Below are positions 1 to 2,477 of a stretch of 64,000 nucleotides of DNA, piece after piece (the stretch's first letter is position 1; every line of letters begins with the position of its first letter). The stretch is from Cohaesibacter intestini. GTDB taxonomy: Bacteria > Pseudomonadota > Alphaproteobacteria > Rhizobiales > Cohaesibacteraceae. The stretch is taken from assembly GCF_003324485.1 (NCBI RefSeq), contig NZ_QODK01000002.1, forward strand, positions 868,001 to 932,000, read 5' to 3'. The notes beneath the pieces are model-generated. The model was given only the letters and a program-made list of their open reading frames with translations, was not told the origin of the DNA and searched no databases. The position numbers were made by a program, and so were the translations under genes.

Positions 1-1140
1 GTCGAGATCTTCCATATCCAGAACATCGGCACCGATATTGCCTTTGGCTGCCACAATGTCATCGTTCGGAGCAATTGCGCTGTCTGCCATCATGGCATCG
101 ATGTCGTCCTGCCCGGCTTCGGCAGACAGGTCCGGTGCACCGGGGACGGCAACATCATCAACTGCCTCGGCAGGCGCCGCATCAAACATTGCGTCGATGT
201 CATCCTGATCGGCCTCTTCAGGTGCCGCATCAAACATCGCATCGATATCACCCTGATCGGATTCTTCAGGTGCCGCATCAAACATCGCATCGATGTCATC
301 CTGATCGGCCTCTTCAGGTGCCGCATCAAACATCGCGTCGATGTCACCCTGATCGGCCTCTTCAGGTGCTGCATCAAACATCGCATCGATATCACCCTGA
401 TCGGCAGGGCCATGATCGGCATTATTCAGCAGAAGATCGACATCGCTCTGTTCGACGCCTTCGCCTGCAAATTGCGGACCATTGAGCAAATGCGCATCCG
501 GGCGCTCGTCATGCGACCGGTGGTGGTTAGCATCCACTTCGACCGTGTGGGATTCAAATCCCCAGATATCGATCATCGAATTGATGCGGCTTTCTACATA
601 GCGCATCGCATCGACAATTTTCTTGATCCGCTGACCGGTCAGATCCTGGAAGGAGCAAGACATGTAAATATTGGTTGCTTCCATATCCAGTTCATTGCAC
701 TTGTCTTCATCAGCGCCCATTTCCCGCAGGGTCCAGGCATATTCCTGGATTTTCTCTGCTGCGCCAAGGATTTCGCCCGTCGCAGATTCGGTCTGGGACA
801 CAATGGCATCCAGCTCGAGCGAAGCCCGCTCAAACCGTTCTGAACCATCATTATTTTCATGCTTGATTTGGGCGATTTCCCGTTTGGTCCGTTCAATGGC
901 GCCGGCCATGTCGGCCAAATCCACCTTGACCCGGTCCATAACGGTTGCCGGTGCCCGCTCACGGACAACGGTTTTTTCCAGTTTATCTATCGCCGCCAAT
1001 AGAGTATCTGTATCGGAGTTCCGGTTTCTGCGTGCATATTCAGACAGAAACCACCGTCCTCTGGCTGTTTCCATAACAGCGGCTTCGATGGCCAGATAGT
1101 CTTCTTGTCTCAGGGGCGTCGGAGGCATAGCGTTGCTCAT
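1..1140 (-). CDS. CheZ-like chemotaxis protein phosphatase with C-terminal repeat array (3' end cut off)
   Basis: At least 380 residues, running off the left edge of the window. Residues 163-175 hold the CheZ signature SFQDLTGQRIKKI. D166 and Q170 match the acidic residue and catalytic Gln used by enteric CheZ to dephosphorylate CheY-P. Residues 45-200 look helical, as expected for the long four-helix bundle. From residue 231 on, the acidic tail repeats a Q-x-D-[IV]-D-x-[ML]-[FLM] motif seven times, five of them in a 16-residue tandem repeat. The motif resembles the CheY-binding N-terminus of FliM (SQxEIDALL). Enteric CheZ is about 214 residues, so this tail is extra. The start is ATG at 1140; a second ATG four codons on is possible. 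The phosphatase role is inferred from the motif; CheY binding by the repeats is my inference. Confidence 0.8.
   Translation of the reverse strand, partial: MSNAMPPTPLRQEDYLAIEAAVMETARGRWFLSEYARRNRNSDTDTLLAAIDKLEKTVVRERAPATVMDRVKVDLADMAGAIERTKREIAQIKHENNDGSERFERASLELDAIVSQTESATGEILGAAEKIQEYAWTLREMGADEDKCNELDMEATNIYMSCSFQDLTGQRIKKIVDAMRYVESRINSMIDIWGFESHTVEVDANHHRSHDERPDAHLLNGPQFAGEGVEQSDVDLLLNNADHGPADQGDIDAMFDAAPEEADQGDIDAMFDAAPEEADQDDIDAMFDAAPEESDQGDIDAMFDAAPEEADQDDIDAMFDAAPAEAVDDVAVPGAPDLSAEAGQDDIDAMMADSAIAPNDDIVAAKGNIGADVLDMEDLD
181..420 (-). repeat. Five tandem 48-bp units within the cheZ-like gene
   Basis: Units lie at 181-228, 229-276, 277-324, 325-372 and 373-420. The first four are nearly identical and the fifth keeps only the half that encodes DQGDIDAMFD. 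Each unit encodes 16 residues of the form AAPEEADQGDIDAMFD, with G/D and A/S variation. The length is a multiple of three, so unit gain or loss would keep the frame. Diverged single copies of the motif flank the block at about 88-111 and 424-450. Confidence 0.95.
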
Positions 1141-1259: not shown

Positions 1260-2477
1260 ATGTATTCTGCCCCTCCTCCACACTATGCAACCCGCATATC
1301 CCTTTTCTTTGGGGCATTCTTCTTTCCCTATGGCATTTACATCCCTTTTGCCGGGATATGGCTAAAAAGCTTGGGTCTGAGCCCGGAATCCATCGGCATC
1401 GTGCTGATGGTGCCGCTGATTGCCCGCGTCGTTTTCACCCCGGTAATGGCAGCGATGGCCGACAAGATCGGAGATCGGCGGTTAACCCTTCAGATCTATT
1501 GCACCCTCTTCGCGTTAACCTTCGCCTTCATAACCATTGATGATAGCCTGGGCTGGATTTTGGCGGTGATGGCCATCTCCCACATCACCCAAGGGGCCAT
1601 CGTACCGATTGCCGATTCTCTCGCCATGGCAGGCACCCGTCGCTATGATCTCGACTATGGCCGGATGCGCCGCTGGGGTTCGCTGGCCTTTGTTGTCGCC
1701 AACTTGGCTGGTGGATTTTGCCTTGATCTGTTGGGCGCCAACAAGATCATCTGGCTGATGATTGGAGGCAATCTGCTGCAGATCGTCTTCTCCCTCACTC
1801 TGCCCAAGGACCCTCGCCTGATCGACCACCAGCGCATGAGCAAGGGCAACAAACTTGACTGGACCCAGCTCAAACAGTTCGGCCAGACCGGCTTCTGGAT
1901 CGTCTTGGCCAGCATCAGTCTCATTCAGGCCTCCCACGCGCTGCTCTACACCTTCGGCACCATCTATTGGGAACAGCGCGGCGTCGCCGCCAGCATGACC
2001 GGCATTTTCTGGTCCGTCTCTGTCTTTGCCGAAGTCTTGGTCTTCAGTTTCTCAAAACGCATTTCCGGTCGCGCTGACTGGAAGGCACTGATCTTTATCA
2101 GCGGCCTGCTGGCCACCTTGCGCTGGGCCTTGATGCCATTCGACATGCCAGAAGCGGGCTACCTGCTCCTTCAATTGCTCCATGCAGGCAGCTTTGCCTG
2201 CTCCCATCTGGGCACCATGTTCTTCATTGCAGCGATGGTCGACGATGACCTCTCGGGCACAGCACAGGGCCTCTATACAATGCTCACCGGACTGTTGATG
2301 GCAATCGCCACCTACGCATCGGGCATTCTTTATGGTGATCTGGGCGGCAATGGCTTTGTCATTATGGCAGGCATTTCCACCACCGCTCTGTTCCTGCTCG
2401 CCACCAGTCACCTGTTCCCTGTTGGCTATATCGCCAGTGACAGAGCGAGCGAAGCACAAAACGAACAACCAAAATGA
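1260..2477 (+). CDS. MFS transporter, HcaT/PPP-like family
   Basis: A protein of 405 residues made almost entirely of hydrophobic segments, consistent with 12 membrane spans. The first span (SLFFGAFFFPYGIYIPFAGIW) and the following segment of about PESIGIVLMVPLIARVVFTP match the MFS_1-like group that includes the 3-phenylpropionate permease HcaT. A MADKIGDRR loop follows span 2, the usual place of the MFS conserved basic motif. I chose ATG 1260 because AAGG sits nine bases upstream and the protein then begins just before span 1; a longer frame back to 1179 adds 27 residues without a ribosome site. The substrate cannot be inferred. It is divergent from the cheZ-like gene. Confidence 0.85.
   Translation: MYSAPPPHYATRISLFFGAFFFPYGIYIPFAGIWLKSLGLSPESIGIVLMVPLIARVVFTPVMAAMADKIGDRRLTLQIYCTLFALTFAFITIDDSLGWILAVMAISHITQGAIVPIADSLAMAGTRRYDLDYGRMRRWGSLAFVVANLAGGFCLDLLGANKIIWLMIGGNLLQIVFSLTLPKDPRLIDHQRMSKGNKLDWTQLKQFGQTGFWIVLASISLIQASHALLYTFGTIYWEQRGVAASMTGIFWSVSVFAEVLVFSFSKRISGRADWKALIFISGLLATLRWALMPFDMPEAGYLLLQLLHAGSFACSHLGTMFFIAAMVDDDLSGTAQGLYTMLTGLLMAIATYASGILYGDLGGNGFVIMAGISTTALFLLATSHLFPVGYIASDRASEAQNEQPK

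Follow-up and report, generated by a model that had tools for sequence, protein, structure and literature searches.

In models of chemotaxis, CheY-P diffuses freely, and both the motor and CheZ bind it one to one. In the CheZ dimer, long helical hairpins form a four-helix bundle, and the helix at the C-terminus lies on the alpha4-beta5-alpha5 face of CheY. The N-terminal helix of FliM binds the same face (PMC11528121), and CheY binds the EIDAL motif of FliM (PMC6946799). In E. coli CheZ the C-terminal helix comprises residues 199-214, the conserved C-terminal CheZ region is marked as CheY-binding and DXXXQ is named as the phosphatase motif (PMC7750401). The rhizobial CheZ of Azorhizobium caulinodans has ACNFQ next to DxxxQ, one C-terminal helix and a CheY-binding region at the C-terminal side, and it is polar in the absence of CheA; unlike the protein studied here it is of the short form, and no repeats are described for it in the accessible part of that source (PMC7750401). 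The same part of the paper states that ChePep of Helicobacter binds CheZ and is tied to the polar placement of CheZ (PMC7750401).

Here we describe a long CheZ-family gene of the marine bacterium Cohaesibacter intestini that encodes seven copies of a docking-type peptide and lies at the start of a stretch of 64,000 nucleotides, hereafter the window. The docking peptide is already known; strings of it appear to be undescribed in the open-licence PMC literature, in whose accessible parts we found no description of any, and the accessible parts of PMC8789113 and PMC9321776 held nothing bearing on the motif. We read the window protein as a CheZ-type CheY-P phosphatase in which a single ancestral docking peptide was copied into a multivalent string of seven peptides that would bind CheY, and we give this reading a probability of roughly 0.6. 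It is supported by Pfam membership, the catalytic residues, the homology of the motif to a solved helix, seven predicted helices and a recent expansion.

A long CheZ-family gene and its seven motifs

The reading frame of the gene is open at the window edge, and the last 92 residues and the stop codon lie beyond the window start. The complete gene is found in the assembly at L001:799-2217 on the minus strand and encodes 472 aa. The features of the region are the following.

1140..1 (-): long CheZ-family gene, ORF open at the window edge, 380 of 472 aa inside
424..714 (-): match to Pfam CheZ PF04344, residues 143-239
631..651 (-): FQDLTGQ, residues 164-170, with D166-x-x-x-Q170, the CheZ catalytic pair
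427..450 (-): motif 1, QSDVDLLL, residues 231-238, 60 residues past FQDLTGQ; AF2 helix 231-239
376..399 (-): motif 2, QGDIDAMF, residues 248-255; AF2 helix 248-256
328..351 (-): motif 3, QGDIDAMF, residues 264-271; AF2 helix 264-271
280..303 (-): motif 4, QDDIDAMF, residues 280-287; AF2 helix 280-288
232..255 (-): motif 5, QGDIDAMF, residues 296-303; AF2 helix 296-304
184..207 (-): motif 6, QDDIDAMF, residues 312-319; AF2 helix 312-320
88..111 (-): motif 7, QDDIDAMM, residues 344-351; AF2 helix 345-354, low confidence
164..405 (-): 48-bp tandem block; Tandem Repeats Finder, 5.0 copies, 90% matches, 0% indels
1260..2477 (+): MFS-type transporter gene, named by eye, divergent from the long CheZ gene

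The profile search placed the window protein above the PF04344 cut-off (44.5 bits against 30.7), and together with the DxxxQ catalytic motif this upholds, as family membership by sequence, the CheZ-like phosphatase identity proposed in the preliminary description. Against the NCBIfam CheZ equivalog NF008368 it reached 38.1 bits, below the cut-off of 257, and it is best classed as a divergent CheZ member that is not an equivalog by the NCBIfam standard. Enteric CheZ (1KMI) shares with it the CheZ profile, the FQDLTGQ active site and the docking helix pattern at a similar distance. The enteric protein, however, carries one peptide at its extreme C-terminus, whereas the window protein carries seven, falls below the equivalog cut-off and has an acidic tail that continues for about 120 residues beyond the last motif. 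The DxxxQ core pattern is present in 56 and absent from twelve of the 68 distinct long-type CheZ loci (L043-L112, 70 loci of which two repeat others). That D166 and Q170 are invariant in our alignment A1, and the motif residues conserved, was discounted, because the rows of A1 had been picked by these very patterns.

A pattern search returned Q-x-D-[IV]-D-x-[ML]-[FLM] at residues 231, 248, 264, 280, 296, 312 and 344, exactly the seven sites first reported, and the five units that Tandem Repeats Finder gave at 164-405 agree with the 48-bp block that had been said to hold five of them. All seven copies fit the FliM-type CheY-binding pattern Q-x-[DE]-[IV]-D-x-[LM]-[LFM], and the N-terminal EIDAL peptide of FliM shares Q-x-x-[IV]-D-x-L-[LF] with them. 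FliM has a single copy before its C-ring domain (in the window genome QEEIDNLL, at residue 58), whereas here many copies are found on other proteins. The tail of the long CheZ comprises 267 residues, 31% of them acidic; when it was shuffled 100,000 times, one match arose in 38 cases and two or more in none. Over the whole genome, a looser DNA pattern gave 42 matches compared with 9 for a reversed control. The shuffles and the control rule out a chance origin of the motifs.

The MFS-type gene was matched by tblastn at 63 of 90 CheZ loci, 62 of them within the 70 long-type loci; it is a conserved neighbour of the long CheZ in the order and stands outside the mechanism. On the other side, beyond the window start and convergent with the CheZ gene, lies P0005 (L004:370-5595), which encodes 1741 aa with a Pfam match to Apolipoprotein A1/A4/E. 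The C-terminus of P0005 adjoins CheZ at only 7 of the 90 loci, four of them in Cohaesibacter, and a pattern search over its 1741 aa found no docking motif. The window CheZ gene is outside any che cluster seen and the only CheA found is on a different contig, which counts against our reading, as do the 48 receiver matches in the genome, which are candidate CheY partners. That CheA lies in the only such cluster found (L282:8415-16226), together with CheW, CheY, CheB and CheR. A CheY of the strain is encoded at L282:12690-13055. By eye, a ChpT-like gene precedes the cluster and a CtrA-like gene follows it, an arrangement that hints at a connection of chemotaxis with the CtrA pathway.

The motif as a CheZ docking peptide

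Two other CheZ matches were found in the genome, P0002 and P0003. The single-copy paralogue P0002 ends in SQDDIDALFD, and P0003 in QNDVDAML...QDQIDALFD. In the comparison of P0002 with 1KMI chain Z, which we take to be E. coli CheZ (E 3.8e-6), ASQDDIDALFD aligns opposite ASQDQVDDLLD, ending at residue 210. Chain Z of 1KMI is also the best PDB match of the window protein, a weak one (E 0.012), with motif 1 at the place of the docking helix.

The distribution of the motif in the family was read from two samples. Among 20 further hand-picked CheZ loci the core pattern occurs in 18, and each of these 18 short CheZs has a single strict motif, whose end is one residue short of the C-terminus. Of the 56 long CheZs with the core, 33 lack a strict motif, 19 have a single one, three have two and one has seven. 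Only the last four of these orthologues, all from Cohaesibacter, carry more than one, which weighs against our reading, and the 33 proteins without a strict motif and the 19 with one indicate that the long string is dispensable for the function of the family. A relaxed motif located 50-80 residues past the core was detected in 44 of the 56, compared with 15 of 11,200 shuffles; motif 1 therefore stands where the docking peptide is usually found, and the other six have the look of copies of it.

Taken at the level of sequence, the motif is the CheZ family's own CheY-docking peptide, and by homology it would bind CheY. The preliminary description had called it a FliM-like CheY-binding motif. The shared pattern stands; its source need not be FliM, since the motif corresponds to the docking peptide of alphaproteobacterial CheZ, as seen from the one C-terminal copy in 18 of 18 short CheZs with the core and from motif 1 at the docking-helix position of 1KMI.

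P0003 represents a third CheZ type, with two motifs; a CheY gene (L006:8084-8464) precedes the P0003 gene at a distance of about 340 bp, and the pair spans L006:8084-9528. Of 13 loci of this type, nine have a same-strand CheY at most about 350 bp upstream, and the flank of the remaining four is too short for a judgement. The CheY beside P0003 matches the CheY of 1KMI with E 2.3e-41, and conservation is good from TAE through KPF and past it.

An AF2 model was computed from the 380 residues inside the window and 57 CheZ homologues, all taken from the tandem scan described below, so that the alignment rows were selected for the motif. The model (mean pLDDT 71.9, pTM 0.39) contains a long hairpin with helices 99-140 and 145-193, mostly at high pLDDT. 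One short helix is predicted for each of the seven motifs from these motif-selected rows, with low-confidence linkers between them; the motifs themselves are modelled with moderate to low confidence (about 49-78 in blocks of 10 residues), the seventh with low confidence. The predicted tail fits beads on a string. Foldseek with this model returned generic helical matches, and nothing in the PDB reached E 0.001.

The mechanism that we propose starts from a single ancestral CheY-docking peptide, which copying would have turned into seven peptides along a flexible, acidic string. On binding CheY, and preferentially CheY-P, each of them would form a short helix against the alpha4-beta5-alpha5 face, as the FliM helix does, and the string may keep several CheY molecules close to the helix that bears the catalytic D-x-x-x-Q. 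This would raise the local CheY-P concentration and rebinding and make the phosphatase output steeper or faster, while part of the CheY pool could be buffered by the string. We infer the CheY binding, the multivalency and the kinetic effect of the string alike.

Copy number and selection in the CheZ tail

Repeat number was compared across related strains, as proposed in the preliminary description, and it does differ: the long CheZ has seven copies in the window species, six in a sister species with 96% core identity to it, and two or three in nine congeners, the last count holding if QDEADALF is allowed. A long CheZ was found in 11 of the 13 Cohaesibacter genomes searched, the two others being 64% and 90% complete. 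Judged from these sequences, the high copy number in the window species is a recent expansion. The five repeat units of the window have pS 0.36 and pN 0.05, and within the block the linkers are as conserved as the motifs (pN 0.027 and 0.025), so that selection on the window copies is inseparable from recent duplication; this too counts against our reading. Three units of the sister species gave pS 1.18 and pN 0.10 for the motif and pN 0.23 for the linker.

To look beyond the genus, a public genome collection was scanned for two motifs in tandem, with CAGG needed at the start. The scan detected at least 118 loci, the tandem being in frame in at least 116, and the class counts drawn from it are lower bounds and not frequencies. 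A script assigned at least 70 loci to CheZ, with 2-7 copies, in Azospirillum, Asticcacaulis, Ponticaulis and others. The preliminary description knew of no CheZ with so many copies; multi-copy tails are in fact present in many other bacteria, so that the window protein is not unique, and L219 is another CheZ with seven. Motif spacing in the scanned CheZs varies, mostly between 13 and 36 residues, which argues against a rigid repeat.

These data bear on the strongest alternative, that only motif 1, at the ancestral position, works and that the 48-bp block is a passenger whose extra copies contribute little, left by slippage during replication in a disordered acidic tail that tolerates it. Within the genus a long string exists only in the window species (7) and its sister (6), the window units are near identical with linkers as conserved as motifs, and most long CheZ orthologues have one strict motif or none, all as a passenger would have it. 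Against it stand the multi-copy CheZ tails of other lineages, with varied spacing and 2-7 copies in at least 70 loci, the retention of six copies by the sister species despite diverged units, and the strong constraint on each copy of the ZitP-like arrays presented below. We consider a passenger repeat unlikely.

Strings of the peptide on other proteins

The preliminary description dealt with the motif on a phosphatase and missed a wider pattern, since phosphatases are not its only carriers: a ZitP-like protein of the same genus carries 5-9 copies that are better constrained. In Caulobacter, ZitP consists of a zinc ribbon, a membrane span and a C-terminal domain (PMC5182065). A genome-wide search with the motif pattern exposed in the window genome the gene of P0004 (L037:9542-10645; G000:C1:1.2126 Mb). 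At the N-terminus of this protein stands a zinc ribbon, which is followed by five SQDDID[AS]LFD repeats, then by a span that is hydrophobic by eye, and last by a C-terminal domain. P0004 has the same N-terminal ribbon, one hydrophobic span and C-terminal domain as ZitP; unlike Caulobacter ZitP, as far as that protein is described in the accessible part of the source, proteins of the P0004 type have 5-9 CheY-docking-type peptides between ribbon and membrane span (PMC5182065). The ribbon matches PDB 2NB9 (E 1.2e-8) and is of the PF13717/PF13719 kind (51.2 bits, cut-off 30.3, and 30.3 bits, cut-off 29.3). A profile search in P0004 for DUF3426, the C-terminal domain of ZitP, gave no match at E 0.01 or better, and we therefore call the protein ZitP-like only. 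Relatives of its C-terminal part are found in 113 of 150 genomes of the order. The gene adjoins an ABC ATPase gene, and its neighbours resemble ftsE and ftsX by eye.

ZitP-like arrays of 5-9 copies are present in all nine Cohaesibacter genomes read out of 13, of which four were reached through orthologues and five were picked as motif clusters showed among the matches listed (the nine include the window strain). Within a protein the copies differ with pS 0.30-1.03 and pN 0-0.053 in these nine genomes, and in one array of seven copies the pairwise comparisons add up to 68 synonymous differences without a single replacement. Many synonymous and almost no amino-acid changes indicate that selection keeps the peptide copies of the ZitP-like protein in Cohaesibacter. 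Thirty P0004 orthologues were taken and 28 could be read: arrays were seen in four, all from Cohaesibacter, a sister-genus protein has a single degenerate copy and 23 are without the motif. Outside the genus, zinc-ribbon arrays among the matches listed were L169, L182 and L186 from other Hyphomicrobiales and L208 from Nitrospinota. By the same reasoning as for CheZ, the string on the ZitP-like protein may recruit CheY to the cell pole.

Besides CheZ, the script sorted the tandem-scan loci into zinc-ribbon proteins (at least 11), a Desulfobacterales type that is FliL-like (at least 11), CheZ-like proteins with QDIT[SA]QQ (at least 3), the P0006 family (at least 2), an unnamed family (at least 2), PopZ (at least 1) and an apparent receiver tail (at least 1). 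The remaining 15 received no class from the script; by eye they include one CheZ fragment, one zinc-ribbon fragment, nine more of the Desulfobacterales type and a chance match, L197 from Streptomyces.

The Desulfobacterales type comprises membrane proteins with 4-12 copies (L170:5706-7247, L176, L191, L196, L228 and similar), whose likeness to FliL is weak and below cut-off (E 0.0012). In L170, from Desulfobacula, the array gene comes directly after those of FlhA, FlhF, a MinD-like ATPase and FliA, and its counterpart in L191 is about 4 kb away from FlgG. L250:428-1075 encodes a PopZ-family protein (151.7 bits, cut-off 125) with two QDDIDALF motifs. L198:1-453 appears by eye to encode the C-terminal half of a receiver domain followed by a tail of four QDDIDNMF, and an Hpt-domain gene adjoins it; no Pfam receiver match was obtained in this gene, which is cut by the contig start. 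A Verrucomicrobial protein of 1000 aa (L203:775-3774) has many QDEIDALL/QDDIDALL repeats, with receiver, HD and hybrid-kinase genes nearby. The unnamed family (L215:884-3190 and L255:884-3046) has 8-9 motifs and a long C-terminal part, and L215 has no match in Pfam.

A further family of 169 aa, represented by P0006 (L040:7292-7801, minus strand) and L360-L389, has a CheZ-like C-terminal peptide, for example AQDxVDxLF, and no match in Pfam or NCBIfam. The strict motif is present in 5 of the 25 members read, and the relatives L222 and L245 have 3-4 copies. The family occurs in 80 of the 150 genomes of the order, 71 with FliM and 9 without. The strict motif QDDID[AS]LF itself was detected in 69 of these 150 genomes and FliM in 101. 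All 69 have FliM and none of the 49 genomes without FliM has the motif (Fisher p 3.8e-18, a value that overstates independence, the genomes being related); the traced hits are CheZ in most cases, or ZitP-like, and the co-occurrence with FliM is partly that of CheZ with flagella.

Arrays on proteins without a phosphatase domain would also suit a string that acts as a CheY-P sink or buffer away from the motor, with the phosphatase domain secondary or dead, an explanation compatible with ours. Single-domain CheY sinks are known in rhizobia and count in its favour, and the paralogue P0002, with its canonical C-terminal peptide, could serve as the principal phosphatase. The window protein nevertheless has the catalytic D and Q, and the core pattern was found in 56 of the 68 distinct long-type loci, and we regard a mere sink as quite unlikely.

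It is very unlikely that the peptide is a polar address label bound by a polar hub, PopZ or another, in place of CheY. ZitP-like and PopZ-family proteins carry the motif and the A. caulinodans CheZ is polar without CheA (PMC7750401), which would favour such a label. However, the known contact between ZitP and PopZ is made through the zinc ribbon, according to the accessible part of PMC5182065, the motif corresponds to the docking helix of CheZ in 1KMI and to the EIDAL of FliM, and the PopZ-family protein L250 itself has the motif, which argues against PopZ as the receptor.

Shewanella FlhG reportedly uses the FliM EIDAL motif. That the peptide of the window protein binds this MinD-like ATPase is scarcely credible: the order of genes around the Desulfobacula array would favour it, but FlhF stays below cut-off in the window genome (best 80.4 bits against 174.15), which makes a FlhF-FlhG system unlikely there, and FlhG was set aside as a partner in this genome; it may be one in Desulfobacterales.

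The docking of CheY by strings thus remains our preferred reading for the window protein. Other flagellar and cell-pole proteins carry strings of the same peptide, and the CheY signal may therefore be gathered in a way that has been overlooked. More tentatively, and at somewhat less than even odds, strings of one CheY-docking peptide may be a general multivalent device of bacteria that stores, concentrates or condenses CheY-P at the pole and the basal body, with signal lifetime set by peptide number; the proposed carriers, unrelated to one another, would be CheZ tails, ZitP-like and PopZ organisers of the pole, FliL-like membrane proteins of flagellar operons, the apparent receiver tail and an unnamed helical family. 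Strings of 2-12 sites would give the textbook chemotaxis circuit avidity, a buffer and storage in space, and through the constrained strings on the ZitP-like pole protein the polarity of the cell would be linked with chemotaxis signalling. The natural series of 2, 3, 6 and 7 copies within one genus makes the effect of valency on signal lifetime directly testable.
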